Shown: one piece after another, positions 3,878 through 18,908 of the stretch
Position numbering within the stretch: the first letter of the stretch is position 1
How the letters are laid out: every line of letters starts with the position of its first letter
Assembly: GCA_031277295.1 (NCBI GenBank)
Contig: JAITMV010000137.1
Location: 1 to 35,120, forward strand
Direction of reading: 5' to 3'
Source of the DNA: Burkholderiaceae bacterium
GTDB taxonomy: Bacteria > Pseudomonadota > Gammaproteobacteria > Burkholderiales > Burkholderiaceae_C
DNA length: 35,120 nucleotides
The notes under the pieces: model-generated
The model's database searches: none
What the model saw: the letters and a program-made list of their open reading frames with translations, nothing else
Told to the model about the DNA's origin: nothing
Program-made: the position numbers and the translations under genes

Positions 3878-4072
3878 AAGCCTGTAAATAAATTCAGCGT
3901 GTCCAAGCAGGTTGCGGGAACGTGTCCAGTTCTTTAGGGAATCGGCCTTTGCAAAACCTCTCTAACCCGCATGGGCGCCGGCGTTTCAAGGTCATCACGG
4001 GTGGCAAAAACTCCCAGGTTTTGATCCGATCCATATCACTCCGGGAGGTGAGCGCTGAAAGCTCGCATCGCC

Positions 4073-4112
4073 CCCCTTCGTCATTCCCGCAAAGGCGGAA
4101 ATGACGAAGGGG
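4073..4112. repeat. REP-like hairpin
   Basis: Arms 4073-4090 and 4095-4112 (18 bases each, one mismatch) enclose the loop AAAG. The arm core TCGTCATTCCCGC and its partner resemble the abundant CATTCCCGCNNNNGCGGGAATG palindromes found between genes in many proteobacteria. It lies about 200 bp after cbbA and could act as a transcript-end stabiliser. It is not an intrinsic terminator because no T-run follows. Confidence 0.75.
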
Positions 4113-4343
4113 TGAGGCGGCGCCGGTTTCATGCGTCACGGGCGACGCGCCATTGACATGGAGCGCCGGGACGAATTTTGCAGGGCGCCTCTTGAATCTT
4201 GACATGCATGGCTGTGTTCATCCGTCAATACGGCGGTAGTGGCCTTCTCATTCGACTCAATTGCATGTGTTAACTCACTTGTTCGGATTGTTTGTTCACG
4301 TTGGGTCACAATATGTTTGTAAAAAATACTATTACAAATAAAT

Positions 4344-4391
4344 GAATTTGTAAACAGCAGAATTTTCAAACAGTCGAATTTGCAAACAACC
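4344..4391. repeat. Three tandem 16-bp repeats
   Basis: Consecutive units at exact 16-bp spacing: GAATTTGTAAACAGCA (4344), GAATTTTCAAACAGTC (4360) and GAATTTGCAAACAACC (4376). The consensus is GAATTTNNAAACANNN. The 16 bases before the first unit match only weakly. The repeats lie in the most AT-rich part of the intergenic region. Spacing of about one and a half helical turns would fit repeated protein binding, or the repeats may be a decayed iteron-like or phage-derived array. No replication gene is nearby. Confidence 0.75.
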
Positions 4392-4840
4392 TTCCATTTC
4401 ATAGGCGTATTGAAATTTATTTTTATTTCTCCTATGAGACGGGATGTGTCTCAGGGGCTGCCTTGCTACAATGTTGTAACGAATGCGGGTGGACGCACGC
4501 TTGACGCGGAAATGATGCAAAGCAGAGACGCGATTCCGCTGGGGGCGCGGATAAGAGCGAATCTGAGCGACTCATGGGGTTTCGAGTAGGTGCTCTCATG
4601 GTTGCTCATCAGGGTGTGGCTTCCAATCTCTGTGCGGCACTTGAATCTGTGACTCAATGAGTGAGTGTGCTCACCCTCATGATATACCGCATATATACGA
4701 TAAAAACCACTTTCGTCCGCCCACTGACACGAAGACGGGAATTCGAGGGGCGGATACTGGGCTTTAAATAGACGTCCTTGGATTCCTGCTTGATGCAGGA
4801 ACAACGGTCGAAGGCGGATAGGAGCATACAGCAGCCCCAG

Positions 4841-4877
4841 GGTGAAGGGTGTTCCCTCTTGAATTCACGGATTCAGG
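4841..4877 (+). repeat. 37-bp dispersed element, copy 1
   Basis: Reads GGTGAAGGGTGTTCCC, then TCTTGAATTCACGGATTCAGG. It matches the copy at 8300-8336 at 30 of 37 positions and the copy at 12001-12037 at 28 of 37, without gaps. The right half contains an imperfect dyad TGAA-N8-TTCA. It lies 453 bp upstream of the Ig-like repeat protein and is the only copy outside the 7.6-14 kb cassette. Confidence 0.7.
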
Positions 4878-5013
4878 AAAAAATCAAGATGATACATGTG
4901 TATTTCTCCGCCATCATCCTGTGAAAAAAATCACGAAGAAGGCGATTAATACAGACCGGGTTGTCGCGTTGAGATGAGTTGTGATAGAGTCGCACTGCTC
5001 AGGGAAGTTACAT

Positions 5014-5044
5014 TAGAATGCATATTTTACACAGTGTAAGGAGG
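5014..5044 (+). promoter_or_regulatory. Promoter-like patch with palindrome and orphan Shine-Dalgarno
   Basis: TAGAAT at 5014-5019 resembles a -10 box; no good -35 is seen. Downstream is a perfect palindrome TTACAC-A-GTGTAA (5027-5039), which overlaps a strong ribosome binding sequence AAGGAGG (5038-5044). No ATG, GTG or TTG follows at a normal distance. It may be the leader of the repeat-protein gene 290 bp downstream with an operator at the transcript start, or a decayed gene start. Confidence 0.35.
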
Positions 5045-5329
5045 AAAAAACAATACGGATTTTCAAAAACTTTAAATCAATTTTCAATATAGCGCTAGAG
5101 CCGCGGTCTTGCGGCGCTGGATAACGTATAGCGCCACACAAATTTGCCGATTGACTGGCTGCCGGTAACGTTTGCTCCGGCAGTGCCTGAGCGTGACAGG
5201 GCGCCAGGCGGCGCAGGGCCGGATGGGTGACGTGCTGCCGGCTTCAGACGCAAACGGTTGGATCCCGGCCTCGGGCAAGCGAAGCGGGTGTTGTGTGGTG
5301 CAAGTAATTTACTGAGGAAGACTGAAAAA

Positions 5330-7342
5330 ATGACTGTACGAAAACTAATAGATGATTCAGACGGATTGGCTTTTACCCCCATGTCGATGCTTTGGGGTAG
5401 TGCAATGACCTTCGGCGCCGACACTTGGGCGTCCGCGCCGATGATGCTGGCCTCCGCACCGACCGTCGCCAACGTAGCCGCCGCCAACGCCGCCGCTGCC
5501 AATGCAACCGCTGTCAACGCCGCCGCTGCCGCCAATGCCCCCGGCCCTGGTGACGGCATTGCGCTTGATCTCAAATTTTTCTCGAATCCGATCGATCAGA
5601 TGACTCTGATCAGTCAGCTTAAGCTAGACGTGGACTTCTTTACCACTGTCAACACCCAACTGCGGGTTAGCGGTACCCTGGATAGGGTGCTGGGGCCAGG
5701 CGACACGGCGCAAGTCCACATCGACAAGGACGTGGGCTGGATCGATTTGTCGAGCGCCCAGGCGCCCGTGGGTGGCAGTAGTTGGGTATATAGCACGCCC
5801 GCGGGCCGGGTATTCAGCGACGGCCTGCATACCTTTGACGCACGCATTGAGAACGCGGCCGGCAACGTCAGTTCCGCTCAGACGGTGAGCGTGGTGATCG
5901 ATACCGAGCGACCAGACATCGTGGTGGACATCACCGGCATTTCCACTGACAGCGGAAAGGAGGGTGACTTCATCACCAACGACAAGAACGGCCTGACTGT
6001 CAACGCCAGTTTGACGCATGCGCTGGATGAGACCGAGCGCTTGACCTACTCGCGCGACGGCGGCATGACCTGGGCTGACATCACCGATGCGGTCAAGGGC
6101 ACGACGGTCAGTCTGTTTGATGGTGATTTGACAGCGACCTCCACCCTCAGGATGCGCGTGGTGGACTTGGCCGGCAACGCTGGCGCCACCGACACCCAGA
6201 AGGTGGTTATCGATACGGCTACGCCGACAACGCAGGTGGAGATCGAATCGATCAGCGTGGACAGCGGCTCGCCGAATGATTTCATTACCAACGACAACGA
6301 CGGCTTGACGATCACTGCCAAGCTTACGAGTGCCCTGGGGCCGGACGAGCGGCTGGAATATTCGCGCGCCGGTTCCCCCTGGATCGACATCACCAGTTCG
6401 GTGAAGGGCACCGTGGTCAACTATGCCGACGCTGGGCTGACGAGCACGGGCGTGATCCAGATGCGGGTCGTCAATGGTGCAGGCAACCCAGGCGTGGCCG
6501 ACAGCCAACTGATCACTATCGATACTTTGCGGGGCGTGGCCGATGCCGATGAAGCGGCGGTGGGTCTTGTCACTGTGATCGATAGCACCCCCAAAATACT
6601 TGGGGAGGAGAGCGTATCGATTGGCAGGGGAGGCGTCGCCGGCAATGCCAAAGCCTACGATAAAGGCGTCTGGACTGACGCCATCACCTTCAAGGTGGAA
6701 GACGGGGCGCAGATGAAAGTGGCGATAGAAGGTTCGATCAAGACTGAAGTCCCGCTGCTTGAGCAGCATCTGACCATTTACGTCACGAATCAAGAAACGC
6801 ACAAGATCGTGGCGACCATTGAGTACAAGGACCCCTTGTGGGAAGGCGGCAGTTGGTACAACGGTCTACCCATAGGGCCAGGCGCCAAATCCGTAACCCT
6901 GGGAGAAGGCACCTATTCGATTCAAGGGGTTTACACCGATGGCTGGCTGTTGGACATCGGCGCACCGGCCAACACTGCGCGCATCGCCGTGACGCAGACG
7001 TCGCTCACCTATAAAGAAGTTGATGTCAATACGGCCGAGGGCAACATATTGGCGAACGATTCGACTGGGGTGAGCTTTGCGTCTCTGGAGGTCGATGGCG
7101 CGGGCACTCCCAACTTCGTGAAGGTGACAGGCCAAGGCGTCGACGTGCGCGGCGCATATGGCACGTTGCATGTCGAGACCGATGGCGACTATCTGTACAC
7201 GCCCGATAAAACCCTTGCCGCCGCCGGCAAGGTCGATGAGTTCGACTACCACTTGATGCGCGCCGACGGGTCGTATGAAAGCGCCACCCTGTCGATTGAC
7301 ATCCTGGATCAATTGGCTCAACAGGTGGTGTTCATTCCATAA
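5330..7342 (+). CDS. Large Ig-like / cadherin-like repeat protein, probably surface or secreted
   Basis: Encodes 670 residues. I chose ATG 5330 because GAGGAAG at 5314-5320 precedes it; an upstream in-frame ATG at 5258 has no such site. No classical signal peptide is seen. Residues 44-70 are a low-complexity Ala/Asn stretch. Then come about three Ig-like units: one near 110-187, then two closely related units of just over 100 residues starting at 188 and 292. Each of the latter begins VVIDT and contains DFITND, GLT, YSR and MRVV. Residues about 562-660 resemble VCBS/cadherin-like domains of large adhesins (AEGNILANDSTG, GAYGTLHVETDGDYLYTPD). This composition suits a biofilm or adhesion protein exported by a type I system, but no RTX repeats or transporter genes are visible. 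Precise function is unknown. The gene stands alone between the long intergenic region and an oppositely oriented cassette. Confidence 0.85.
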   Translation: MTVRKLIDDSDGLAFTPMSMLWGSAMTFGADTWASAPMMLASAPTVANVAAANAAAANATAVNAAAAANAPGPGDGIALDLKFFSNPIDQMTLISQLKLDVDFFTTVNTQLRVSGTLDRVLGPGDTAQVHIDKDVGWIDLSSAQAPVGGSSWVYSTPAGRVFSDGLHTFDARIENAAGNVSSAQTVSVVIDTERPDIVVDITGISTDSGKEGDFITNDKNGLTVNASLTHALDETERLTYSRDGGMTWADITDAVKGTTVSLFDGDLTATSTLRMRVVDLAGNAGATDTQKVVIDTATPTTQVEIESISVDSGSPNDFITNDNDGLTITAKLTSALGPDERLEYSRAGSPWIDITSSVKGTVVNYADAGLTSTGVIQMRVVNGAGNPGVADSQLITIDTLRGVADADEAAVGLVTVIDSTPKILGEESVSIGRGGVAGNAKAYDKGVWTDAITFKVEDGAQMKVAIEGSIKTEVPLLEQHLTIYVTNQETHKIVATIEYKDPLWEGGSWYNGLPIGPGAKSVTLGEGTYSIQGVYTDGWLLDIGAPANTARIAVTQTSLTYKEVDVNTAEGNILANDSTGVSFASLEVDGAGTPNFVKVTGQGVDVRGAYGTLHVETDGDYLYTPDKTLAAAGKVDEFDYHLMRADGSYESATLSIDILDQLAQQVVFIP

Positions 7343-7344
7343 AG

Positions 7345-7378
7345 ACAAAAACAGCCTTGCCGCCGAAACCCGGCGGCA
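7345..7378 (-). terminator. Probable intrinsic terminator for the minus-strand cassette
   Basis: An 8-bp GC stem (7358-7365 with 7371-7378, loop AAACC) is followed on the minus strand, four bases on, by TGTTTTTGTC. For plus-strand transcripts of the repeat protein it is a hairpin without a U-tract. It lies about 200 bp beyond the last cassette gene. Confidence 0.55.
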
Positions 7379-7543
7379 CTACTCCTCCAGCCTAAAGCGC
7401 TGAGGTTTTGGTGGGCGCGGTGGTGTTGAAAATTGGTGCAATGCCTTTTTTGATGCACTGCCGCGCTCACGTTTTTTTCGTGCCGCCAAGGGGGGCCTGA
7501 GCTTTCCCCTGGTTTCCGTGCCCCGTGGCTGGGGCCATTGTGC

Positions 7544-7569
7544 GGCTTGCTACGGCTGAGCAGCAAGCC
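7544..7569 (-). other. Hairpin just after the channel gene
   Basis: GGCTTGCT (7544-7551) pairs perfectly with AGCAAGCC (7562-7569) around a 10-base loop. The stem starts 10 bases beyond the stop codon of the AqpS-like channel. No T-run follows, so it may protect the transcript's 3' end rather than terminate it. Confidence 0.4.
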
Positions 7570-7578
7570 CAAGCCCGT

Positions 7579-8283
7579 TCAAGGTGCCTGAGTCACACCA
7601 GATGATTCAATCACATTGGGATGGTCATGCCGCATCGGACGGAACTCCAGCAGCTTGTGAAGTGCCAATCCAACGGCGCCTCCCGCAAATTCGGCCAATA
7701 TGAAATTAGGAACACTGGCTGGCGCGATGCCAGCAAAAGTGTCGCTGAACATTCGGCCAAACGCTGCCGCCGGGTTCGCAAACGACGTCGATGCGGTAAA
7801 CCAGTAGGCCGCACCAATGTAGGTTGCCACCATAGCCGCAACGCGTCCACTCGGCGCTCGCAGTATCACGAGAACAAGTCCCGCTGTGGCAACACCTTCG
7901 GCAATCCACTGACCAGGCCCACCGCGCATCTTTGTGGATAACTGTAAAATCGCCGCATCAAACATGGCGTGCGCTAGCCAAGCACCCAATATGGCTCCCA
8001 CAAGTTGTGCTGCAGCATAGGGAATAAATTCCACTCCCGGCAGATCTTTCTGCACTGCCATAATTCCGCTGACGACTGGATTGAAGTGCGCTCCGCTAAT
8101 CGGTCCAAATACCTCAATCAAAATATATAATCCACCAACTGTGGCTGCTGTGTTGGCAAGAAGAGCAATGGCCACATTACCGCCCGCAAGCTTTTCTGCC
8201 ATGATGCCAGAGCCAATAACAGTAGTCAATAATAACGCAGTCCCTAATATTTCAGCGCTTAATTTATGCCATAAATGATACAT
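7579..8283 (-). CDS. Aquaporin-family channel, AqpS-like (metalloid or glycerol facilitator)
   Basis: Encodes 234 residues with six hydrophobic segments. The two half-helix signatures of the MIP family are present: SGAHFNPV (Asn68-Pro69-Val70, NPV in place of NPA) and SFANPA (Asn170-Pro171-Ala172) followed by GRMFSDTFAGI. That second block is typical of the short bacterial aquaporins found in arsenic operons (AqpS type), which pass arsenite or methylarsenite down a gradient; this is family knowledge, not shown here. ATG 8283 follows AAGGA at good spacing. It is the last gene of the minus-strand cassette, with an upstream gap of 56 bp filled by a 37-bp element. Membrane location is expected. 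Uncharged solutes such as glycerol or boric acid are alternatives. Confidence 0.85.
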   Translation of the reverse strand: MYHLWHKLSAEILGTALLLTTVIGSGIMAEKLAGGNVAIALLANTAATVGGLYILIEVFGPISGAHFNPVVSGIMAVQKDLPGVEFIPYAAAQLVGAILGAWLAHAMFDAAILQLSTKMRGGPGQWIAEGVATAGLVLVILRAPSGRVAAMVATYIGAAYWFTASTSFANPAAAFGRMFSDTFAGIAPASVPNFILAEFAGGAVGLALHKLLEFRPMRHDHPNVIESSGVTQAP

Positions 8284-8299
8284 GGTGGGTAATCCTTGG

Positions 8300-8336
8300 G
8301 GTGAAAAGGTTTCTCTCTTGAACTCGCGGATTCAGG
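8300..8336 (+). repeat. 37-bp dispersed element, copy 2
   Basis: Thirty of 37 bases match copy 1 (4841). It fills most of the gap between the LuxR-type gene and the channel gene, starting 17 bp upstream of the channel's start codon and just ahead of its ribosome binding site. It could act as an operator or an RNA processing site within the operon. The dyad here is TGAACTCGCGGATTCA with two imperfect positions. Confidence 0.7.
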
Positions 8337-8339
8337 CAA

Positions 8340-9035
8340 CTACATTGATGCGGATGCGTCTGCCAACACTTGCATGGCTAACTCTGTTCTATTGATGCTT
8401 CCGGTTTTACGAAGTATGGTAGAAACTTGGTTTCGAACGGTGTTGGGGCTTGTGCCGAGCAAACGAGCAATTTTTTTATTGCTTAGCCCTTTTGTTAATA
8501 ACTTGAGTACATCAATCTCCCTCGGTGCTAGCGGCTGACAGGAAGAATCAGTAAAATTTGAGTTATTATGTGATAGGCAATTTAAACAATGTGGTGAAAC
8601 GATTCGATGGCATTGCTTAACCAAATCAGTTACAAATGATTTTATCTGGTTATCGCTGCTATTGCGGCAGTTGGTGCTGGCGATAGCGAATAACATCAAA
8701 TCTGCTCTCAGAGGGATCCCGTGGATTGAAAATCGACGTCCACAATTTTTTGCTTTAGTCGGAGGTATTTTCCCCACACAGGTGCAATTATCAAAATTAA
8801 TTAGTGTTGGCGTATGCGTCGCCGACCAAATTGTGACAAGAGATGCGCACTGATGGCGCAGATTTTTTGAAGGCTCATGAAAGTCACCATTCCGATATAT
8901 GATGTCATGAATTTTTGCGGCTGCAGGACTCGGTGTGGTTATTCCAACAACCGCCCAGTCAATTTCTAATAATTGAGATGCTGGTCCCGATAGCATGGCT
9001 TCAATTTGATGCCAATTGTAGTCTCCAGTTTTCAT
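8340..9035 (-). CDS. LuxR-type transcriptional regulator, cysteine-rich N-terminal domain
   Basis: Encodes 231 residues. Residues about 168-227 form a LuxR/GerE helix-turn-helix: LAPREIDVLKLLTKGLSNKK, then IARLLGTSPNTVRNQVSTIL. The N-terminal 160 residues show no phosphoacceptor receiver domain. The layout recalls EpsA-like LuxR regulators of betaproteobacteria, with an SIHG segment before a hydrophobic strand, but I cannot name the ligand. Nine cysteines are present (63, 84, 86, 98, 123, 142, 150, 153, 166), including Cys-Thr-Cys and HCLNC, which is unusual for the family and could bind a metal(loid) or sense redox. ATG 9035 follows GAGG. A 101-bp AT-rich gap to the upstream methyltransferase-like gene could hold a local promoter. 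It probably regulates this cassette. Confidence 0.85.
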   Translation of the reverse strand: MKTGDYNWHQIEAMLSGPASQLLEIDWAVVGITTPSPAAAKIHDIIYRNGDFHEPSKNLRHQCASLVTIWSATHTPTLINFDNCTCVGKIPPTKAKNCGRRFSIHGIPLRADLMLFAIASTNCRNSSDNQIKSFVTDLVKQCHRIVSPHCLNCLSHNNSNFTDSSCQPLAPREIDVLKLLTKGLSNKKIARLLGTSPNTVRNQVSTILRKTGSINRTELAMQVLADASASM

Positions 9036-9136
9036 TGTCTACCTCATTAATGCATAGTGCTAGGATGGTTGGGTGCTCTCAAAATTATCAAGTTGCACGG
9101 ATGGACGGCTGGTTTAATTTAAAATACAGTTGATTT

Positions 9137-10225
9137 CTAGCAACAACCACTACCAGGCGCACAGAGGGCAGCGGCAGGAGGTTGTGCGCCAGTGAAAGGA
9201 ATGAAGCCCTTTGTTACACGAGGATCTCGCAATGCGGGTGTGTTGCAGTCGAATAGTGCCGCTTGTTCGAGCGGGGGTTCGTTCACGCTTCGCAGCCCGG
9301 TGAGTGCACCTCGGTAAGGAGCGCGCATCAGGAGATCATAAGTTTTGGAACAAACAGCAACCCGCTGACCACGGCGGTAAATGTGCCCATCGTCATCATG
9401 CACCTCTTTCCAAGGGCCATTATAAATAACAGCCTGGCCTAACTCGAAGCATGAACCGTGTTTGCCTTTATACCCTTCAATGACGCACATTCGAATGTCG
9501 GCATCACCAATTCGATCAATAAATTCTGGATTTTCAGTAGATTCTATTGGCCAGCGTAAACTCGCGCCATGAAATCCCGCTTGTTCAATAGCGTTCAGTA
9601 AATTTTCTTCAGTCGGTATCCAAAGAGGTTGTCTTATCGGTGATCCCTTGATTACTGATGCTGAGGGTAATGCTGTATCCGATACAAGTACCGCACATAA
9701 AAATCGGCCTTGGCGGTGTAAGACCCTGAAAGCCTCGGACAGCATACCAGACTGAGCCGAGGGCGGAACGCGGTTCAGTGTAAAATCCATTACAATGCAC
9801 TGCGCCCACTCGTCATCAAAGGCTGGAAGTGAATCAAAATGCTGGGAGAGCTTATCGGAGAAAGCAAGGTAGCTATCTACATCTCGCAGTGACAGTCCCG
9901 ACAAGGCTGATTTGAGCCCAAGTGCATCGCGCCGCAGGTCGTCGATGGATAATAGCCGAACCGATGGAGCCTGATTGCCCATCAACGCTTTCCCGCGCTG
10001 TAAAAAGCGTGGATCACTTTCAGCAAGGCTAATTTCATACGCTACGCCCGCTTGCACACATTTTGCTAAAATTTCTGAATAGCCCACGCCCCACCACAGC
10101 ATGTGCTTGTGTGTGGCTGTTGATGGCTCAGCCTGAAGAGAATCAGTGATGAGATCAGAAAGGATCGGAATTGAGCGATCCCAGGCGTTCAATTTGGAAG
10201 TGATCGCGATGTTTGGCGTATTCAA
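9137..10225 (-). CDS. ArsM-like methyltransferase-related protein with degenerate SAM loop
   Basis: Encodes 362 residues from a TTG start, two bases after the stop of the SDR gene, so it is translationally coupled. Residues about 140-185 keep the late part of a class I methyltransferase fold: MLSEAFRVLHRQGRF then VSDTALP, as in arsenite methyltransferases. The glycine-rich SAM motif expected near residue 45 is replaced by HMLWWGVGYS, so cofactor binding is doubtful. Residues about 250-362 match what I recall of a C-terminal extension in some ArsM-type proteins: GYKGKHGSC, VIYNGPWKEVHDDDGHIYRR, VAVC, PLEQAALFDC and DPRVTKG. The last residues carry Cys355 and CC at 361-362, typical metalloid-binding placement. 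It may methylate or merely bind a thiolated arsenical. Activity is uncertain. Confidence 0.7.
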   Translation of the reverse strand: MNTPNIAITSKLNAWDRSIPILSDLITDSLQAEPSTATHKHMLWWGVGYSEILAKCVQAGVAYEISLAESDPRFLQRGKALMGNQAPSVRLLSIDDLRRDALGLKSALSGLSLRDVDSYLAFSDKLSQHFDSLPAFDDEWAQCIVMDFTLNRVPPSAQSGMLSEAFRVLHRQGRFLCAVLVSDTALPSASVIKGSPIRQPLWIPTEENLLNAIEQAGFHGASLRWPIESTENPEFIDRIGDADIRMCVIEGYKGKHGSCFELGQAVIYNGPWKEVHDDDGHIYRRGQRVAVCSKTYDLLMRAPYRGALTGLRSVNEPPLEQAALFDCNTPALRDPRVTKGFIPFTGAQPPAAALCAPGSGCC

Positions 10226-10227
10226 GC

Positions 10228-11445
10228 TTAGGTACCCCTAGTATTTGCTGCGAGTGGAATTCTCGCGTTGTGGATGGAATCCCGATATACGATATGATCG
10301 GCAAACTCGGAATGAAAACACTCGTGATATTTTTGCATCACAGTTGAGGAGCGCACGAATCTATCAAGACATGTCTGCACCGTTGTCACCGATGCCTCCG
10401 CAAACTGTAAGCCACGCTGCTGAAGCAGAGGCAGCCACTGCCGTTCGAACTGCCATGGATACGCGGCAATCTCGAGGTTAGTGCGAGCGAAGGTCAGATA
10501 GCTACGCTGCCGGATGTCTAGCGTCTTGAGATTAATTTGCTTCAAATTGTCATAAAATGTTATGGAGCGCGGGTGTAACATGACTTCGCCGACCAGACGC
10601 CAAAGAGCTTTCATTGAAGGTACCGAGGCATTATCCGATACTAGATTGACATAGGCAGATATCGGTATCCAGCGCAGCAGGTATGCTATTGAGGCTTGAA
10701 AAGTGTCTTGATGCAGAAGATTCACCGGCTCATCAGTGCCAACCAAGTGCAAGTTTGAGTGATAGCGATCGCATAGAAGTCGTTCGATACCCATCCACTG
10801 CTGGTACAGACCATACCGTTTTCCACTGTATCGCCCGGTCGCAGAATCGCCGATGACAATGGATGGTCGAACGACGATGAAAGGCACTTCATAATTCTGA
10901 ATAAGATGCTCGGCAGCGCGCTTGGTGCGTGTGTAGCTCGTAGGATCGGCGCATGGCTCACTAAGCGCCGTTTCTGGAACCATGCGGCCAGCATAGCCTG
11001 CCGAGTAGGCAGTGGAGATATAGGCAAAGAACTCAACGCCAGCCATCTTCGCGGCCACCGTGAGCCGCATAGTGAATTCGATGTTGATGGCATTCAGCGC
11101 ATCATCATTATAGTAATCCAAGCATCCCGCGCAGTGAATAATTGAGTTGATGCCAAAATTTTTAATCATTGCATACAAATCCTGTATCTCAGTGAGTTCA
11201 GCATTCTGCCACTGAACGGTTTGAATGCAACTAAAAAAATCTTCAGGAATGCTGCCCAGTGCCTGCAATTCATTGCAGATATCATCTGGCATACTTTTTT
11301 CAATTAACTTTCGGGTAGGGATTAATAGATAATCGGCCCAGCCATCGTGGAGAATTTGCGCGGCAATTAGCGCCCCAAGATAGCCGGTACCTCCGGTCAG
11401 TAAAACACGCTTTCCACAGCGTGGTCTATCAAGCAGTGTGTTCAT
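10228..11445 (-). CDS. NAD(P)-dependent extended SDR of the acyl/thioester-reductase type
   Basis: Encodes 405 residues. The Rossmann nucleotide loop is TGGTGYLG at 17-24. The catalytic set is visible: AYISTAYSAG (Ser144/Thr145) and Tyr171-x3-Lys175 in SYTRTKRAAE. The STAY block and VRPSIVIGD match the NAD-binding-4 group, which contains fatty acyl-CoA reductases and thioester reductases that make aldehydes or alcohols from acyl thioesters. A general epimerase-type SDR is an alternative. ATG 11445 lies 6 bases after the stop of the CC thioredoxin-like gene and the next gene follows after 2 bases, so these three are coupled. Nearby lies a diiron protein resembling aldehyde-deformylating oxygenase, which suggests an aldehyde intermediate. 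No acyl carrier protein gene is seen here. Confidence 0.75.
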   Translation of the reverse strand: MNTLLDRPRCGKRVLLTGGTGYLGALIAAQILHDGWADYLLIPTRKLIEKSMPDDICNELQALGSIPEDFFSCIQTVQWQNAELTEIQDLYAMIKNFGINSIIHCAGCLDYYNDDALNAINIEFTMRLTVAAKMAGVEFFAYISTAYSAGYAGRMVPETALSEPCADPTSYTRTKRAAEHLIQNYEVPFIVVRPSIVIGDSATGRYSGKRYGLYQQWMGIERLLCDRYHSNLHLVGTDEPVNLLHQDTFQASIAYLLRWIPISAYVNLVSDNASVPSMKALWRLVGEVMLHPRSITFYDNLKQINLKTLDIRQRSYLTFARTNLEIAAYPWQFERQWLPLLQQRGLQFAEASVTTVQTCLDRFVRSSTVMQKYHECFHSEFADHIVYRDSIHNARIPLAANTRGT

Positions 11446-11451
11446 GGCGAC

Positions 11452-11871
11452 TTAGTATGCCGTCGGTGTGCTCATGGCTGGCAGTGCTGCCAGAATGAGT
11501 GAGCTGTTTGGCGCTCCACCATATGAAATCAATTTCTGATTCACTAATACCATCGGAAAGGCTGCGGGTCCATGCGACATGAATAGCTCTCTCACTTGGG
11601 TCGCAAGTTCGTTTTGCATAGCATCAAGTTGGCCGGAAATTCTGCCCAATGCGCTCTGCGCCTGTGTCACTGTTACTATTAATACCGGCCAATCTAGATC
11701 GACATTTTTCAAGGCTTCGAGTGCTGAAGTTTTGGCTTGCAGATCCACACTTTCAGTGCCCTTCATGCAGCAACTTGCCGAGATTACAGCAACCACCTTT
11801 GGGCTGAGTGCCTGCTTGATGGCTGCATCAGCCTCATCAAGGGATTTCTTGCTTTTCAAAAAATCAAACAT
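11452..11871 (-). CDS. Small thioredoxin-fold-like protein with vicinal cysteines (ArsD-like?)
   Basis: Encodes 139 residues. A hydrophobic strand VVAVI leads to SASCCMKGTE with Cys34-Cys35. A FPMVLVNQ segment with Pro106 follows, in the position of the thioredoxin cis-proline, then LISYGGAP. The plan recalls ArsD, the arsenic metallochaperone with a CC near the N-terminus and a PLLLVDG strand, but the CC has no nearby third cysteine and overall similarity looks weak. A redox-active thioredoxin-like role is possible, but CxxC is absent. It is likely a metalloid chaperone or thiol carrier for the cassette. ATG 11871 has only a weak ribosome binding site; the upstream gap to the permease holds two inverted element copies. 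Confidence 0.6.
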   Translation of the reverse strand: MFDFLKSKKSLDEADAAIKQALSPKVVAVISASCCMKGTESVDLQAKTSALEALKNVDLDWPVLIVTVTQAQSALGRISGQLDAMQNELATQVRELFMSHGPAAFPMVLVNQKLISYGGAPNSSLILAALPAMSTPTAY

Positions 11872-11960
11872 GATATATCTTTCGATGTAAAAATTGCAAA
11901 GACACTGAATAATTCAAGAATCGCAAAGACATCTCTTTGAAAGCCAATGAATTATAAATG

Positions 11961-12037
11961 TCTGAATCCGTAACCTCAAGAAGGAGAGTCTCGCCTGCAG
12001 GGTGATGTGTTATGCCCCTTCAACTCACGGATTCAGA
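11961..12037. repeat. Two inverted copies of the 37-bp element
   Basis: Copy 4 is at 12001-12037 (+ orientation, 28 of 37 to copy 1). Copy 3 is at 11961-11997 in reverse orientation (22 of 37, mainly its right half). Their outer ends form a perfect 11-bp inverted repeat: TCTGAATCCGT at 11961-11971 and its complement at 12027-12037. The pair lies between the permease and the CC-protein gene, and could fold in RNA or bind a dimeric protein. Confidence 0.65.
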
Positions 12038-12077
12038 AAATGTTTAGTAAACTGGAATCTAAATTTCCGGCGCTCCC

Positions 12078-12998
12078 TCATAGCGCTAGTGCAGTCACCC
12101 ATCCTAAAATAAGTGCTGAAATCATGACAACCAGGATGTGCACAAGTACTAATGGTATTCGGAACATGCGCAACAGGAGCACGATTTCCGGAGGGCTTGT
12201 GCCAATCGCTGCGACGAGAAATGTCACCAGGGGGCCAATTGGAAACCCCCGCTCAATCAGTGCCAATCCAATAGGAATGACTGGAATTGGTGAAATGTAT
12301 AGTGGCAGTCCGATGAGCGCGCAAAGAAGATAGAGCAGGGGAAGGGGAACCCGGTCGGTGAGGTTGGCAAGTATCTCACTTGGCACCGCGCTATAAATCG
12401 CTCCACCGATCAGAAGTGCAATCACCAGATGCGGCGCTATGCCACGCAACTCTTGTTTGGCAGCCAACCACGCAAATCGGTTGGCTGGTCGCCAGCCAGG
12501 CCACTTCGACGTCTCAGTGCTGCTGCCAACATATTGTGCAGTGGCTCCCGCTGCTTGTGGAGTCGTACTTAAATATCTGCCAAATCCAGTGCGGTCCACC
12601 AAGACTCCTGCTGCCGATGTTAATACCAGCCCAACCGCTATGAAAATTAGACCAGCTGTAGGGTAACCTGCTATGAACAGTAGAATAAATACCCCCTCAT
12701 TTACAACAGGTGAAGCGACAAGAAAGGCGAAGCTTGGCGCGAAACCGACCCCAGCCTTCAGCATACCGCTGAGAACTGGAATCGTTGAGCAGGAACAGAA
12801 AGGTGTGAGAACGCCGCCAACACTCGCAACGAATGATGTTATCCAATCGGACGAGCCAAGCAACCCTTTTGAAGTGTTTTGTAGAGAAAACCGTTGCTGC
12901 AGTAGCATGATAATCCAAGTTACAGCAAGGAAGAGTGTTATTAAAACACTCCCATCCATTGCTAGAAACTTGAAAAATTCTAGAAATTCTTCTTTCAC
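12078..12998 (-). CDS. UPF0718/ArsP-type membrane permease
   Basis: Encodes 306 residues from a GTG start; no in-frame ATG lies upstream. About eight hydrophobic segments are visible. The signature of the family is present near residues 65-84: TPFCSCSTIPVLSGMLKAGV, with Cys68 and Cys70. A related proline-rich block, SPIPVIPIG, occurs in the second half, in keeping with an internally duplicated permease. ArsP members expel trivalent organoarsenicals such as methylarsenite or roxarsone(III); other UPF0718 members have unknown substrates. A hydrophilic loop of about 40 residues separates the halves. Position between a diiron protein and a CC thioredoxin-like gene, in a cassette with an AqpS-like channel and an ArsM-like protein, favours a metalloid-linked substrate, but this is inference. 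Confidence 0.8.
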   Translation of the reverse strand: MKEEFLEFFKFLAMDGSVLITLFLAVTWIIMLLQQRFSLQNTSKGLLGSSDWITSFVASVGGVLTPFCSCSTIPVLSGMLKAGVGFAPSFAFLVASPVVNEGVFILLFIAGYPTAGLIFIAVGLVLTSAAGVLVDRTGFGRYLSTTPQAAGATAQYVGSSTETSKWPGWRPANRFAWLAAKQELRGIAPHLVIALLIGGAIYSAVPSEILANLTDRVPLPLLYLLCALIGLPLYISPIPVIPIGLALIERGFPIGPLVTFLVAAIGTSPPEIVLLLRMFRIPLVLVHILVVMISALILGWVTALAL

Positions 12999-13053
12999 TG
13001 ACTGCTCACTGTCATGGGTTGCATGTACACGATTATGAGTGTGAGATCATTAA

Positions 13054-13908
13054 TTAGTGCACTGCTGCGCTTAACCCGGCGTGCGCTGATGGTGTGCCAG
13101 CATAGGATTGCATTGATTCAATCAGTGCGGCCGTGATGTTCGGGTCAAAGTTTGCCTTATCAAGAGTTTCAATGTAGGTGTCAAGTGCTTCGACGCGAAT
13201 CTCGTCAATATCCGTCTGCAGATCGGTGAGCGTGAGTGATCCACAATCGACACCAAGTCGGCCACAAAGGAAATGGCAACTGGTGCTTATTAGGCTAAAT
13301 AATTCCGGCATCACACGATGGTGCGCCCATTTTAGGCTTTCATGTGTTCCTTCCGAATCTTCAGCCAACATTTTTTGAATACGGCTTAGCCCAAAGTCAA
13401 GATGCCCTAACTCATCATCTAAAATTTTTGCAGCGAGACTTGCGGTGTCAGGATCGCCTTTCCTCTTTAGAATGCGGTAAAGGACAATCGCCAGCGTCTC
13501 GCCCATGAGATCCTGAATAATGAAGCATGTCGCTAAATCCTTATTGGCGACTGCGGTGCTGAAGTATCGCCTGATATTGAACCATTGTGGTTCAATCATT
13601 TCTCGCATTACTTCGTAATCGTGGCGCTTTCCAAGACTGGCAAGCATTAGAATGTGCTTGGCCTCTTCGTAGCCAAGTTTTGATGTTTCAATTTTACTAT
13701 CCGTGTCAGGCATAAGTGGCACCATTTCAGAATAGTTTTCAACTGCCATAATTTCGCCTGCAACGGCATTTGATATTATAAATGCCAGTAAATCGAAGTA
13801 GCCATCGCCCTTCTTGTGCTGTGTTTTTATCTCGCTGCGTCGATTTGCTGGACGCAAGTCGGTAGGCATTTTATCAATTGGTGTATCAATGGTCGAAGCG
13901 CTGTTCAT
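13054..13908 (-). CDS. Ferritin-like diiron protein resembling aldehyde-deformylating oxygenase
   Basis: Encodes 284 residues if ATG 13908 is used. I prefer that start because AAAAGG precedes it; an in-frame ATG at 14055 would add 49 residues with no conserved look. A four-helix diiron site is complete: Glu52, Glu82-x2-His85, Glu137 and Glu166-x2-His169. The spacing from His85 to Glu137 (52) and from Glu137 to Glu166 (29) equals that in cyanobacterial aldehyde-deformylating oxygenase as I remember it, and DLATCFIIQDLMGETLAI resembles the helix around the third ligand there. That family turns fatty aldehydes into alkanes. Other ferritin-like hydroxylases such as MiaE share the ligand plan. It is the first gene of the cassette; the SDR four genes on could supply an aldehyde. 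Confidence 0.7.
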   Translation of the reverse strand: MNSASTIDTPIDKMPTDLRPANRRSEIKTQHKKGDGYFDLLAFIISNAVAGEIMAVENYSEMVPLMPDTDSKIETSKLGYEEAKHILMLASLGKRHDYEVMREMIEPQWFNIRRYFSTAVANKDLATCFIIQDLMGETLAIVLYRILKRKGDPDTASLAAKILDDELGHLDFGLSRIQKMLAEDSEGTHESLKWAHHRVMPELFSLISTSCHFLCGRLGVDCGSLTLTDLQTDIDEIRVEALDTYIETLDKANFDPNITAALIESMQSYAGTPSAHAGLSAAVH

Positions 13909-14042: not shown

Positions 14043-14187
14043 TAGTACAAAACACCCAGCGCTGTTGTGTTGCGCTGAGCGTTGGCGCAAGGTCGCCGCG
14101 CGGTCGGCTTTGGTGCGTATTGCCTGCTGCGCCCGGCGTGTTGTGCTGCGGGCATTGGGGTTTTGACTGCGGTGGTGGTCACAGTCG

Positions 14188-15741
14188 CTACGGTTGCACC
14201 AGTGGTGGTTGCCCATGCAATGGCTGCGTACCTATGGCGGTGAACAGCGCCGCCGTGTTGCTCAGCCGAGCTTCGGCGTAAGTCAAGGCATTGAGCTGAG
14301 CGTCGATGGAAAGCTGCTCGCGCGCGCGTGCAGCGGCGGGCGCAAGCGCACCCAGTCGCACCTGGGCCCGAACATCGGCCAGAGCTTGTTTGGCTGCCTC
14401 CTGCGCCATATCCGCGGCAAGCAACGCATCTGCGTCTTGCTGCAATGTCAGCAGTAGATCAGCCACCTTGCCAAAGGCCGCCAAAACCGTCTGCTTGTAA
14501 TCTTGCACCGCGGCTTGATAATTGTTTCGGGCAGCGCGGGCTTCAGCGCGCAATGCTCCGCCATGAAACAGCGGCGCCGTGAGCGATGCGCCGATGCTCC
14601 AGATACTGCCTGCCGCACCCATCGCCGAGGACCAGTCAAAGCCGCCTTTGCCCATTGCGGCGCTCAAAGTTAGGCTCGGATACATTTGGGCGGTGGCGGC
14701 GCCCACTTCAGCAGCGGCGGACTTCAAGGCGGCGTCGGCTGCCTGGATGTCTGGTCGAATCTTGAGCAATTCTGAGGGCACCGTTACGGGGATGCGCTGA
14801 GGCACTGCCAACCGGTCAAATTCCAAATCCTGCGGCGCCTGCTGCGGCGCCACTCCCAAGAGCAGCGCCAGCCCATGGCGCGCGACAAGATGCTGAGCGT
14901 GCAATCCGGGCAGTATGGCGGCAACAGCCATGGCGCTGCGATTGGCCTCCATCAAATCATGGGGTGCCACGGCGCCAAGCTCCTGACGCCGTTGCATTTC
15001 ACGGGCATCTTCTTGGGCCAGCCGGAGCAGTCGCTCGGTGGCGTCAATCCTGACCCGTAGCGCCGCCACGCGAATTGCGGTTGTGACGATGTTGGCCGCA
15101 AGTGCTTGACGTGCAGCCTGTAACTGCCAAAACTGCCGCCGCGTCTGCCAAGCCAAACGCTTATTGGCGTAGCGCGTGGCGCCGAACAGATCGAAGGTGT
15201 ACTTTGCTTGCACCTGGCCCAAAAAGATGTCGTACACGGCAGTGGGAGGAACGGGCGGCAGCGGCAGGGTCAACTGGCGAGCGCGGTTTGCTTGTCCGCC
15301 AACATCAATTTGCGGCACGGTGGTGCTCGCATTCAGGGCAGTCAACTGTTCGCGCGCGGCCGAGAGTCGATGGTTGGCGGCTTGCAGATCCGGGCTGTTG
15401 AGCAGCCCCCGCGTCACCAACGCATCAAGCTTGGGATAAGCATAAGCGCGCCACCACTGATTCCGAGCCTGAGCGTTCCAAACGAACTCCTGCGCCACTC
15501 CACGCGCCGACGCGGAGCGTGCGGGCCAAGCTTTCACGTCGTAGCGCTCGACTTTGGATATCGCTGGCGGCGTACCTGTTGGGATGTCAGCGCAAGCGCC
15601 CAGCATTAACGCCAAGAACCATGCCGACGCCAGAAGCCGGGTTCGAGCATGGGGCCATGCGGTACGCACCAGCCGGCCGGCTCGATCAGGCCGCGCGAGC
15701 GAGCGGCCCGTCATCCGAAATGACTGCCTAGGCGGACTCAT
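14188..15741 (-). CDS. Outer-membrane factor lipoprotein of RND efflux (NodT/TolC type)
   Basis: Encodes 517 residues from ATG 15741, which overlaps the pump's stop codon as TGATG. The lipobox LMLGAC places the lipidated cysteine at residue 50. The N-terminal region ahead of it is long and arginine-rich, so a later start such as Met10 is possible. Two outer-membrane-efflux repeats follow, with long helical stretches (for example NHRLSAAREQLTAL and RNNYQAAVQDYKQT), and LKIRPDIQAADAALKSAAAE, a hallmark segment of NodT-type factors. It forms the trimeric exit duct linked to the pump and fusion protein encoded upstream. The last of three coupled genes. About 280 bases separate it from the AT-rich cassette; I see no strong terminator there. 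Confidence 0.9.
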   Translation of the reverse strand: MSPPRQSFRMTGRSLARPDRAGRLVRTAWPHARTRLLASAWFLALMLGACADIPTGTPPAISKVERYDVKAWPARSASARGVAQEFVWNAQARNQWWRAYAYPKLDALVTRGLLNSPDLQAANHRLSAAREQLTALNASTTVPQIDVGGQANRARQLTLPLPPVPPTAVYDIFLGQVQAKYTFDLFGATRYANKRLAWQTRRQFWQLQAARQALAANIVTTAIRVAALRVRIDATERLLRLAQEDAREMQRRQELGAVAPHDLMEANRSAMAVAAILPGLHAQHLVARHGLALLLGVAPQQAPQDLEFDRLAVPQRIPVTVPSELLKIRPDIQAADAALKSAAAEVGAATAQMYPSLTLSAAMGKGGFDWSSAMGAAGSIWSIGASLTAPLFHGGALRAEARAARNNYQAAVQDYKQTVLAAFGKVADLLLTLQQDADALLAADMAQEAAKQALADVRAQVRLGALAPAAARAREQLSIDAQLNALTYAEARLSNTAALFTAIGTQPLHGQPPLVQP

Positions 15742-18700
15742 CAAAGAGCCTCCTGGATGTCCATGGCCTCAGGCTTGCCCAAGTCACCGCCATGCACGTC
15801 AAACCACACCGCATATAGCGCGGGCAGATACAACAGCGTCAAGATGGTCGCCCCGGTGATGCCTCCCATGAGGGCGGTAGCCATGGGGCCGAAAAAATTG
15901 TTTCTCACCAGCGGGATAAGTGCCAGCACCGCCGCCGCGGCGGTTAGCGTGATAGGCCGGAAGCGCCGTACCGTGGCGCCGACGATAGCTTCCAAGCGAG
16001 AGCGGCCAGCGGCTACATCCTGATCAATCTGATCGACCAGAATGACTGAGTTGCGCATGATGATGCCAAACATCGCAATCACGCCCAGCAAGGCGACAAA
16101 TCCAAAAGGCTGTCTTAACAGCAGCAACGCGGCCACCACGCCAATGAGGCCCAGAGGCGCTGTGAGCACGACCATCATCACGCGCGCAAAACTTTGCAAC
16201 TGGATCATGAGCAGGCTCAATACGGCAATGACCATGAACGGCATCTGCGCGCTGATCGAGTTTTGCGCCTTGGCGTTTTCTTCGATCGGCCCTCCCGCGA
16301 CAATCCGGTAGCCTGGAGGAAGGGCAGTTTGAATGTCCTTTAGTTTCTCGTCTAGCGCGGCTGCGACGTCAATGCCTTGAATGCCTGCAATCACGTCGGC
16401 CTGCGCCACGATGGTCGGCTGGCTGTCGCGCTCCCAGATGACCGAATAGCCCAACTCATGGCGCATACGGCCAACGGCAGTGAGCGGCACCGGGCCTTGG
16501 GCCGAAGGTAGCGTCAATGCGTCCAGACGCGATGGATCCATGCGCTCGTTTTTGGGCGCTCTAAGATCGATGCCGATGAGCCGGTCGCTCTCACGATATT
16601 GCGAAACGGTAAAGCCGCTCAGCGACATCGCCAAAAAACTGGCTATATCCTGCGCCGAAAGTCCCAGTGCATTGGCTTTCTTGTCGTCAATCTCAAAGCG
16701 CACTTGGCGCGCTGCAGGCTCGTCCCAATCCAACTGTACGTCGAGAGTGCGAGGATCGCCGCGCATGACTTGAACCACCTGCTGGGCAATGCCGTGCACG
16801 GTCTCGATATCCTCGCCACTGACCCGGAACTGCAGTGGATAGCCCGCGGGCGGACCGGTTTCCAGGCGCACAATGCGCGTGCGCACATCGGAGAACTGCT
16901 CTCGCAGCACTTGGCCTAGCCATTGCGCCAGGCGCTCGCGATCTTTGAGCGACTTGGCCGTAACAATCATCTGAGCGAAATTGGGCGCGGGCAACTGTTG
17001 GTCAAGCGGCAGATAAAAGCGCGGCGCGCCGCTGCCCACAAAACTTACCTCATGGTCAATTTCCGCACGCTCCTTGAGTACGCGCTCCAGCCGCTGCGTG
17101 ACGCGTAACGTCGCCTCGAACGAGGCGTTTTCCTGCAACCGAATATCCACCAGTAATTCGGGGCGCTCCGAGCTTGGGAAAAATTGCTTGGGCACAAGCG
17201 TAAAGCCCGCCAATGACAGCACAAAAAGTGCCGTCGCGATGCCCAACACGATAAAACGCCGCCGCACGCACCATAGGATTAGGCGATTCAGGCGTTTGTA
17301 AAAGCGGCTGTCATAGACATCGTGCTCCACGTCAACTGAGCCATGCCCTTCGTGCTCAGCACTCGCCTTATGTTCAGGCAACAACCAATAGCCCAGTAGT
17401 GGAATGAGTGTCACCGCCGCTAGCCATGAGGCGATGAGCGCGATGGCCGAAACCTCGAAAATCGCGCGCGTGTATTCGCCCGTGGCGGACTTGGCCAGGG
17501 CAATGGGCAAAAATCCGCTGACCGTTACCAGCGTGCCGGTCAGCATGGGAAATGCCGTGCTCGTGTAGGCAAATGCGGCCGCGCGGGCGCGCGGCCAGCC
17601 CTGTGCGAGTTTTACCGCCATCATCTCTATGGCAATGATGGCGTCGTCCACCAGCAAGCCCAGCGCCAGCACCAAGGTGCCAAGCGATACTTTGTTCAAG
17701 CCGATGTCAAACATGTGCATCAGCAGCGTGGTGATGGCCAGCACCACCGGTATGGAAATCACCACCACCATGCCCATGCGCACACCCAGTGAAAACAAAC
17801 TTACCAGCAGCACGATAACGACGGCCTCGGCGACCGAGCGGGTGAATTCATCGACCGATTTCGACACGGCCCGTGGCATGCTAGAGACCTCTTTCAATAC
17901 AAGCCCTACAGGCAGTTGTGTGCGCAACTGCTCCAAGCGCTGCGAAAGCGCTTTGCCTAAAGCGACTACATTGATATCTGGCTGCATGGTGATGCCGATG
18001 CCCACTACGGGTTGTTCTTCTTGGCGCATCTGCATGACCTGTGGATCGACGTAGCCGCGCCGGATTGCGGCAATATCACCGAGGCGCACGTTGCGGTCGT
18101 CAATGACAAGGAGCGTTTGCGCGAGCTCGGTCAGGCTTTGAAACTGACCCGTTACGCGCATTTGCACTATGTCGTCCGCGCTGGCCACCTCGCCTGCGGC
18201 GGTTACGGCGTTGCGCGCGGCCAACTGATGGGCGATTTGTTGTGGCGAGATGCCTAGAGCGCTCAGGCGCGTGTTGGGAATCTCGACGGTGATGCGTTCC
18301 TCTTGCTTGCCAAAGTAGTTGACCTTGGCCACGCCTGGCACGCGCAGCAACTCGGTGCGCAGCATTTCGGCGTAAGCATGCACCTGGGCAGGCTCGAATC
18401 CGTCGCCTTGCAGTGTAAGGATGCTGATGAAGACGTCGCCAAACTCGTCGTTAAAGCCCAGCGGCAACACGCCCGTGGGCAGGGTATGCGCGATGTCGCC
18501 CAGCCTCTTGCGTACCTCGTACCACTGCGCGGCGACCTTTTTGGCAGGCACCGAATCCTTCATCGTGTAGAAGATCATCGATTGGCCGGGCCGGGAGTAG
18601 CTGCGGATGAAGTCCGTGTGAGGAATTTCCTGAAGCTTGCGCGTGAGGCGATCAGTGACCTGCAACTGCATCTGGCGCGCGTCGGCGCCGGGCCAGCGGG

Positions 18701-18908
18701 CCTCGATGACCATGACGCGAAACGTGAAAGGCGGGTCTTCAGACTGTGCGAGTTGTGTCGCTGACAGGATGCCCCAGACAGTGACCAAGACAAAGAAAAA
18801 CGTGACGAGCGCTTTGTGGTGCAGCGTCCAAACCGAGAGGTTGAACTTAGGGCGTGCGCTGACAGGCTCATGGTTTAACGCCTGCGCAAATGCTTGTTTG
18901 AGCTTCAT
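15741..18908 (-). CDS. RND efflux pump, inner-membrane transporter
   Basis: Encodes 1055 residues. A first transmembrane helix near 34-53 is followed by a large periplasmic loop, a block of membrane helices from about 356, a second loop and a final helix block: the duplicated AcrB-type plan. The proton-relay Asp pair is at 421-422 in LGLLVDDAIIAIEM. The sequence resembles the drug-type (HAE-1-like) branch more than metal-type CusA, but I cannot assign a substrate. Uptake of substrate from periplasm or inner leaflet and proton-driven export are family knowledge. The start overlaps the fusion protein's stop as ATGA, so translation is coupled. Control probably comes from the divergent ArsR-family gene. 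Confidence 0.93.
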   Translation of the reverse strand: MKLKQAFAQALNHEPVSARPKFNLSVWTLHHKALVTFFFVLVTVWGILSATQLAQSEDPPFTFRVMVIEARWPGADARQMQLQVTDRLTRKLQEIPHTDFIRSYSRPGQSMIFYTMKDSVPAKKVAAQWYEVRKRLGDIAHTLPTGVLPLGFNDEFGDVFISILTLQGDGFEPAQVHAYAEMLRTELLRVPGVAKVNYFGKQEERITVEIPNTRLSALGISPQQIAHQLAARNAVTAAGEVASADDIVQMRVTGQFQSLTELAQTLLVIDDRNVRLGDIAAIRRGYVDPQVMQMRQEEQPVVGIGITMQPDINVVALGKALSQRLEQLRTQLPVGLVLKEVSSMPRAVSKSVDEFTRSVAEAVVIVLLVSLFSLGVRMGMVVVISIPVVLAITTLLMHMFDIGLNKVSLGTLVLALGLLVDDAIIAIEMMAVKLAQGWPRARAAAFAYTSTAFPMLTGTLVTVSGFLPIALAKSATGEYTRAIFEVSAIALIASWLAAVTLIPLLGYWLLPEHKASAEHEGHGSVDVEHDVYDSRFYKRLNRLILWCVRRRFIVLGIATALFVLSLAGFTLVPKQFFPSSERPELLVDIRLQENASFEATLRVTQRLERVLKERAEIDHEVSFVGSGAPRFYLPLDQQLPAPNFAQMIVTAKSLKDRERLAQWLGQVLREQFSDVRTRIVRLETGPPAGYPLQFRVSGEDIETVHGIAQQVVQVMRGDPRTLDVQLDWDEPAARQVRFEIDDKKANALGLSAQDIASFLAMSLSGFTVSQYRESDRLIGIDLRAPKNERMDPSRLDALTLPSAQGPVPLTAVGRMRHELGYSVIWERDSQPTIVAQADVIAGIQGIDVAAALDEKLKDIQTALPPGYRIVAGGPIEENAKAQNSISAQMPFMVIAVLSLLMIQLQSFARVMMVVLTAPLGLIGVVAALLLLRQPFGFVALLGVIAMFGIIMRNSVILVDQIDQDVAAGRSRLEAIVGATVRRFRPITLTAAAAVLALIPLVRNNFFGPMATALMGGITGATILTLLYLPALYAVWFDVHGGDLGKPEAMDIQEAL

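Follow-up and report, generated by a model that had tools for sequence, protein, structure and literature searches.

A conserved arsenic-linked gene cluster with an aldehyde-decarbonylase-like diiron protein, an acyl-reductase-type dehydrogenase and an ArsM relative without its catalytic motifs

Introduction

What would a bacterium make, or unmake, with enzymes of the fatty-aldehyde type in the company of arsenic genes? The question is raised by seven genes at positions 7579-13908 of contig JAITMV010000137.1 (assembly GCA_031277295.1; our contig C36), a stretch of 35,120 nucleotides from a Burkholderiaceae bacterium that we analysed whole and refer to as the window. It is a single contig of a 2.89 Mb genome in 279 contigs (90.8% complete). 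Six of the seven genes form a unit that recurs in the same order and on the same strand in other genomes, its connection with arsenic is nearly certain, and its probable role is the synthesis or conversion of an organic arsenic compound that may be lipid-like.

The origin of arsenic lipids and arsenic-containing hydrocarbons is an open question, and extracts of a 2024 study of algal arsenolipids (PMC11009773) conclude that several unknown pathways take part in algal arsenic cycling. A conserved arsenic-linked operon with an acyl-reductase-type short-chain dehydrogenase/reductase (SDR) and a diiron protein resembling aldehyde-deformylating oxygenase (ADO) is a genetically tractable candidate, being present in Pseudomonas and Chitinolyticbacter isolates.

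Results and discussion

A six-gene core conserved in order and strand

The seven open reading frames (ORFs) all lie on the minus strand with intergenic gaps of 2-206 bases, in agreement with a sequence-only reading of this DNA, which had described seven closely spaced genes on one strand. In the direction of transcription they are:

13054..13908, minus strand: diiron ferritin-like, ADO-like protein (284 aa; ATG at 13908, with an open GTG upstream at 14055; Ald_deCOase, 1.1e-16)
12078..12998, minus strand: ArsP/UPF0718 permease (306 aa; ArsP_1, 2.6e-34)
11452..11871, minus strand: CC thioredoxin-like or ArsD-like protein, here the CC protein (139 aa; SASCC motif, weak ArsD profile match)
10228..11445, minus strand: extended SDR of fatty-acyl/thioester-reductase type (405 aa; NAD_binding_4, 1.2e-19)
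9137..10225, minus strand: ArsM-like protein, here pseudo-ArsM (362 aa, TTG start; NF040538, 4.3e-17)
8340..9035, minus strand: LuxR/GerE-type regulator (231 aa; GerE, 5.1e-13), the last gene of the core in all seven type I loci
7579..8283, minus strand: AqpS-like MIP channel, accessory (234 aa; MIP, 5.8e-16)

Scanning with the diiron protein (one genome per species) gave six further loci of the same make-up, which we call type I, and 300 genomes of the order gave a seventh (genome G238). The sequence-only reading had suggested looking for the gene order in other genomes, and it does recur: the genes for the diiron protein, ArsP, the CC protein, the SDR, the ArsM-like protein and the LuxR regulator stand in the same order and strand in 7/7 of these loci, with aioBA inserted before luxR in one. 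The six loci of the species scan belong to Pseudomonas farris, P. huaxiensis, P. putida GM4FR, a gammaproteobacterial metagenome-assembled genome, Roseateles subflavus and Chitinolyticbacter albus. Compared with the window proteins, identity ranges from 70-74% for the diiron protein to 33-37% for the LuxR regulator, and the six proteins diverge in step with one another (r 0.69-0.96 across 21 pairs of loci), to which the shared ancestry of the hosts contributes. The effective number of lineages is nearer four or five, because L007 and L008 have nearly identical matches and L003 and L009 are close to each other; L008 was excluded from the identity matrices, alignments and tree. One of the four family matches, L014, lies on the same Roseateles contig as L006 and was counted once, and L022 (ArsH, genome G958) was dropped as it lies on a contig other than that of L005. 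The gene order is beyond chance. AqpS had been included in the unit by the sequence-only reading but was rejected as a core gene, being present in 0/7 type I relatives; the window protein is 74% identical over 210 aa to a MIP protein in the ars operon beside L016.

Two more genomes (G904 and G896; loci L015 and L016) hold a divergent form, type II, in which the diiron, arsP, CC protein and SDR genes are retained (diiron identity 61%) and neither the ArsM-like nor the LuxR protein has a match in the available stretches. Few genomes carry the diiron gene: with our own genome included in each count, it was found in 2/300 genomes of the order, 1/398 of a phylum sample and 4/299 of the family.

Arsenic genes in and around the loci

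In 6/9 loci other than the window, arsenic genes are found within the cluster or next to it. In Roseateles (L006), aioB (160 bits, cut-off 96) and aioA (1173 bits, cut-off 359) stand between the ArsM-like and luxR genes. In four further type I loci they lie beyond a putative outer-membrane gene: ArsN2, ArsB and ArsH over cut-off and ArsC below it in P. farris (L019); ArsR, ArsO and ArsN1b over cut-off, ArsC and ArsH by homology and ArsB by eye in P. huaxiensis (L020); ArsC and ArsH by homology in P. putida GM4FR (L021); and ACR3, ArsI/CadI and ArsR over cut-off with ArsC below it in G238 (L023). In the type II locus L016, an arsR-arsC-arsC-aqpS-arsH run, its ArsH over cut-off, stops some 0.9 kb short of the diiron gene. 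That such neighbours respond to arsenic agrees with published induction in P. pseudoalcaligenes, where, according to extracts of the report (PMC10138600), arsenite induced an arsP gene and PstA. A conserved unit with arsenic genes in or beside most of its loci thus bears out the arsenic link proposed from the sequence, which we regard as nearly certain.

Linked transport genes

Flanking genes were picked with simple ORF scripts that returned some wrong frames, and those named by eye are marked as such. In all six type I loci with upstream sequence (L003-L008; L009 begins near a contig end and was excluded from these counts), a divergent set adjoins the diiron gene. It comprises pstS, pstC, pstA and pstB, an MMPL/HAE3 transporter with a fused LolA-like domain, and a putative outer-membrane protein that matches no family; an AMP-forming acyl-CoA ligase belongs to the set in 5/6 and is missing in L003. 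The type II locus L016 has a different set after its core: an amino-acid-type binding protein, an ATPase, two permeases and an OsmC-like protein, followed by a LolD-like ATPase, a LolCE-like permease, a LolA-like protein and a putative outer-membrane protein. Here the binding protein, OsmC-like protein and LolCE-like permease are profile matches below their curated cut-offs; the names of the ATPases, of both permeases and of the outer-membrane protein were given by eye. The LolA-like protein of type II shares homology with the MMPL fusion in the C-terminal domain of the latter (27%, 2e-26), and the outer-membrane proteins of the two types are weakly alike (22.6%, 5e-4), so that both types combine an importer with a LolA-type route. 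The lipid-type side of the cluster, suggested earlier from the window enzymes, thus has a counterpart in the relatives, which carry lipid-type transport genes of either the MMPL/HAE3 and LolA-like or the LolCE-like ABC and LolA-like kind.

The ArsM-like protein has lost the motifs of a methylase

Pfam gives no match for the ArsM-like protein at E values up to 1, and its best-scoring model is that of the ArsM of arsinothricin clusters (NF040538), which covers residues 93-293 of 362. Profile alignment with a true ArsM using hhalign (99.1%, E 4.4e-19, 186 columns) places the homology over the C-terminal half. The C-terminal domain and a Cys-rich tail of the arsinothricin type are retained, while S-adenosylmethionine (SAM) motif I, the canonical cysteine motifs and the N-terminal CC pair are lost. 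We built a tree of 25 sequences, with eight pseudo-ArsM rows, 14 of the 29 matched genomes other than our own and three of 14 further loci (L026, L037, L039). The four motifs tested (SAM motif I; GCG, SNC and GC..GA) are absent from 8/8 members of the pseudo-ArsM clade (support 100/99) and present in 17/17 other relatives. A pattern for the C-terminal domain matches 14/25 rows, including all eight of the clade; some ArsM relatives do not show the domain. Six cysteines (C259, C292, C327, C355, C361, C362) are invariant in 8/8. The earlier description of this protein as ArsM-like does not extend to its function: a working methylase was rejected, since the SAM motif and the canonical cysteine motifs are gone throughout the clade.

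One homologue, L048 (G223:C62, 58-6764), sits on a long branch, its placement unsure, and lies in an arsinothricin-type cluster on an 8.7 kb contig. Its genome belongs to the sample of the order, where only G000 and G238 were hit with the diiron protein. The genes run in the order 100-aa protein, ATP-grasp-type gene, pseudo-ArsM, major facilitator superfamily (MFS) transporter, ArsM, ArsL and PitA-like permease; the arsinothricin-type ArsM scores 353 bits (cut-off 240) and ArsL 683 bits (cut-off 450), and the MFS and PitA-like genes were named by eye. Because a real ArsM adjoins pseudo-ArsM here, methylation is an unlikely role for the latter, and because the cluster holds both ArsM and ArsL, organoarsenical biosynthesis is a setting in which the pseudo-ArsM family is found without being required for methylation. 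Whatever the product may be, the clade is a case of an arsenic enzyme stripped of its catalytic motifs that still resides in arsenic clusters, one of them arsinothricin-type, and can serve as a marker in the search for further clusters. As side observations, the ATP-grasp-type gene of L048 resembles peptide ligases, possibly pointing to a peptide form of arsinothricin, and in L049 (G132:C22; about 7344-9542) a gene that by eye is cyclopropane-fatty-acid-synthase-like comes after an intact arsinothricin-type ArsM.

The diiron protein and the SDR

By sequence the diiron protein is a ferritin-like protein with the E/E-H/E/E-H set of the ADO family. In Pfam, MiaE_2 comes second to Ald_deCOase (2.5e-5, below cut-off), and in a PDB profile search 20/20 matches at E <=0.01 were aldehyde decarbonylases, the best at 1.8e-11, and the six E/H positions lined up. 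These positions, E52, E82, H85, E137, E166 and H169, which we take to be the ADO metal ligands, are invariant in 7/7 diiron rows and kept in both type II proteins. The type II proteins (L015, complement of 9280-10491; L016, 4709-5725) carry in addition a C-terminal Cys-rich tail that the window protein does not have. Together with the C-terminal cysteines of pseudo-ArsM, this tail suggests an arsenic-thiol carrier function, as if in type II, where pseudo-ArsM was not detected in the available stretches, the carrier had been moved onto the diiron enzyme.

The SDR matches NAD_binding_4 with 70.9 bits (cut-off 20.1), and its best PDB profile match is MxaA 4u7w (1.1e-8), a thioester reductase domain. 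The YxxxK motif is retained, with Y171 and K175 invariant. The substrate class, as judged from these matches, is uncertain.

ArsP, the CC protein and the regulator

ArsP is present in 7/7 type I and 2/2 type II loci and matches ArsP_1 with 119.2 bits (gathering score 32.3). Its best NCBIfam models, SaoE and Cu/Zn efflux, are both below cut-off, and the family also includes exporters of other metals; we infer that it may export trivalent organoarsenicals. The CC protein has an invariant SASCC in 7/7 rows, and SASCC or SAACC in type II. Its single-sequence search gave no significant match (ArsD model, E 0.083); with the ArsD model NF033727 it scores 13.4 bits and its P. farris counterpart 17.4 (cut-off 90). 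An hhalign comparison with ArsD (75.5%, E 2.4e-5) spans 36 columns only, with the CC pair outside the aligned part, so that it weakly resembles ArsD. PDB profile searches with pseudo-ArsM, the CC protein and ArsP found no credible relative. The LuxR regulator, labelled Cys-rich in the sequence-only reading, has indeed nine cysteines in 231 residues, of which C63, C84 and C86 are invariant in 7/7 rows, and may sense arsenic. Overall the family assignments made from the sequence stood, with two qualifications: ArsM models cover only part of the ArsM-like protein, and the CC protein has no significant match by itself.

Proposed function and alternatives

Our preferred proposal is an arsenic-inducible operon that would turn intracellular trivalent arsenic into an exported acyl- or aldehyde-derived organoarsenical; in this full form it is tentative, at somewhat below an even chance. 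The LuxR-type protein would sense arsenic via its conserved cysteines, and the ArsD-like CC protein and pseudo-ArsM, which has kept a thiol-rich C-terminal domain after losing catalysis, would carry the arsenical. The SDR could reduce an acyl thioester to the aldehyde, the thioester being supplied by the linked acyl-CoA ligase in 5/6 relatives with an upstream flank, and the diiron protein could act oxidatively on the aldehyde or on an arsenic adduct. ArsP would then export a trivalent organoarsenical and, in relatives, the MMPL/LolA or LolCE/LolA set would move a hydrophobic product outward.

An acyl-thioester reductase together with ADO is the logic of hydrocarbon synthesis. We favour biosynthesis because of this logic, because the six-gene order is kept in 7/7 loci and the four-gene core in two more genomes with arsenic neighbours in 6/9, and because of the linked sets (pst, MMPL-LolA and ligase in one type, importer and LolCE-LolA in the other), the L048 context and the Cys-rich tail of type II. 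A narrower version of it, leading to a lipid-like organoarsenical such as an arsenic fatty aldehyde or an arsenic-containing hydrocarbon, would have the SDR reduce, the diiron enzyme deformylate or oxidize, the dead ArsM serve as carrier (its tail fused to the diiron enzyme in type II) and ArsP and LolA-type proteins export; so specific a route we consider unlikely.

Several observations weigh against the biosynthetic proposal, the main weakness being that none of the seven genes encodes a known C-As bond-forming enzyme (radical SAM, mutase or intact ArsM). Host metabolism may supply the arsenical, or the diiron enzyme may act in a new way. The diiron protein scores 59.6 bits with the NCBIfam ADO equivalog (cut-off 222.65), and since this is far below cut-off we treat it as an ADO relative and do not assign a substrate. 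For the SDR, an Epimerase match is nearly as good as NAD_binding_4 (1.4e-17, 64.4 bits, cut-off 20.9), the thioester-reductase model TIGR01746 reaches 46.2 bits (3.7e-12, cut-off 213.35), the other 9/10 PDB matches are UDP-galactose/glucose 4-epimerases, and no acyl-ACP (acyl carrier protein) reductase model is among the 20 families listed. Three loci (L005, L009 and L015) have no match to ArsR, ArsC, AqpS or ArsH queries, the arsenic genes searched for there; the sequences of L005 and L009 are cut short on one side. Lastly, the window site has no acyl-CoA ligase, PstSCAB or LolA-type set, and its genome, 90.8% complete, has no match to the MMPL (RND) protein or PstS in a search run without a positive control.

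The arsenic neighbours fit detoxification equally well. Here an environmental organoarsenical (methylarsenite, an arsinothricin-like or a lipid-like compound), imported or encountered by the cell, would have its organic part oxidized or reduced by the diiron protein and the SDR, and ArsP, with ArsH, ArsI or ArsN in some hosts, would complete the process. ArsN1b (an arsinothricin acetyltransferase), ArsN2, ArsI/CadI and ArsH do adjoin relatives, phosphate-type and amino-acid-type ABC importers are linked, and the seven genes include none for a known C-As bond-forming enzyme. However, an acyl-type reductase with an acyl-CoA ligase is in our judgement unusual for breakdown, pseudo-ArsM is found in an ArsL/ArsM biosynthetic cluster, and the LolA-type sets suggest a hydrophobic cargo. 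We hold detoxification to be somewhat unlikely, and rank biosynthesis above it as the more likely, not by much.

The same enzyme types handle fatty aldehydes, and under arsenic stress the SDR and diiron protein might instead remove lipid aldehydes or damaged acyl chains while the CC protein mends thiols. Such membrane or thiol repair agrees with the arsenic regulators nearby and with the OsmC-like protein of type II (below cut-off). It is nevertheless decidedly unlikely, as ArsP, the ArsD-like protein and, in type I only, pseudo-ArsM are arsenic-linked and stay with the enzymes, and a linked importer is not needed for general repair. An ordinary arsenic island assembled by chance from unrelated genes is very improbable: such islands are of mosaic make-up, and extracts of PMC3834237 report pst genes in them, but chance grouping is rejected by the order kept across gamma- and betaproteobacterial hosts and by the correlated divergence (partly from host ancestry), and the four-gene core persists in divergent type II.

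Relation to known systems

Of described systems, the arsQML arsinothricin cluster of Burkholderia gladioli, as extracted from PMC8552651, is likewise an arsenic operon that encodes an exporter and a member of the ArsM family. It lies near pitA and aioAB, and the relatives described here have pstSCAB or aioBA. Our seven genes differ in having neither a radical SAM ArsL nor an intact ArsM, with the diiron protein, SDR, CC protein and ArsP instead. The bisenarsan (bsn) cluster of Streptomyces, in extracts of PMC12159101, is arsenic-regulated and yields an organoarsenical with an acyl (polyketide) part by a non-SAM C-As bond, but it uses EPSP-synthase-like, mutase, decarboxylase and polyketide synthase genes, none of which is among the seven. 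The parts of these two reports available to us (PMC8552651, PMC12159101) describe no diiron-SDR core. Islands joining aioBA, ars and pst genes are also on record, the extracts of PMC3834237 making no mention of diiron, SDR or pseudo-ArsM genes.

The pairing of an acyl-type reductase with an ADO-like diiron protein resembles that of the cyanobacterial acyl-ACP reductase and ADO. In contrast to that pair, the SDR here matches fatty-acyl/thioester reductase and not acyl-ACP reductase models, and arsenic genes surround the two. Open-access PubMed Central literature gave no account of the cluster among the matches listed, and subscription papers may hold one; within that scope, this enzyme combination in an organoarsenical-type arsenic cluster is without a report.

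Base composition, horizontal transfer and the surrounding window

The sequence-only reading had called the region AT-rich and suggested transfer, and both suggestions stood up. GC content is 47.9% across 7579-13908 against 61.3% in the remaining contig, and third-position GC (GC3) is 38-51% in the seven cluster genes against 66-82% in 11 other measured genes. The diiron gene is missing from 3/3 sampled congeners, and the pseudo-ArsM tree places the window with Pseudomonas and Chitinolyticbacter, not with Roseateles, which belongs to the same family as the window genome. Composition, absence from congeners and tree together support horizontal transfer. Plasmid spread of the diiron gene was rejected, as a search of a plasmid collection was without a match.

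Immediately upstream of the diiron gene, at 14188-20041, lies a resistance-nodulation-division (RND) tripartite efflux set with a GC content like the rest of the contig. This flank matches congeners piecewise at 67-92% identity, and no empty insertion site was demonstrated. Scans for promoters (14 sites, 8.3 expected) and terminators (10, 7.4 expected) were not used. A second low-GC kilobase (49%) lies outside the cluster at 4001-5000, with no ORF >=150 aa listed inside it, and an ORF at 5258-7342, next to the low-GC patch of the cluster, has a bacterial Ig-like (Big_13) domain. Finally, close to the P. putida GM4FR locus (L021, about 4612-8224), genes named by eye for a thermostable-hemolysin-type protein, an AMP-binding enzyme, a heme-oxygenase-like diiron protein and an SDR form another possible small biosynthetic set.

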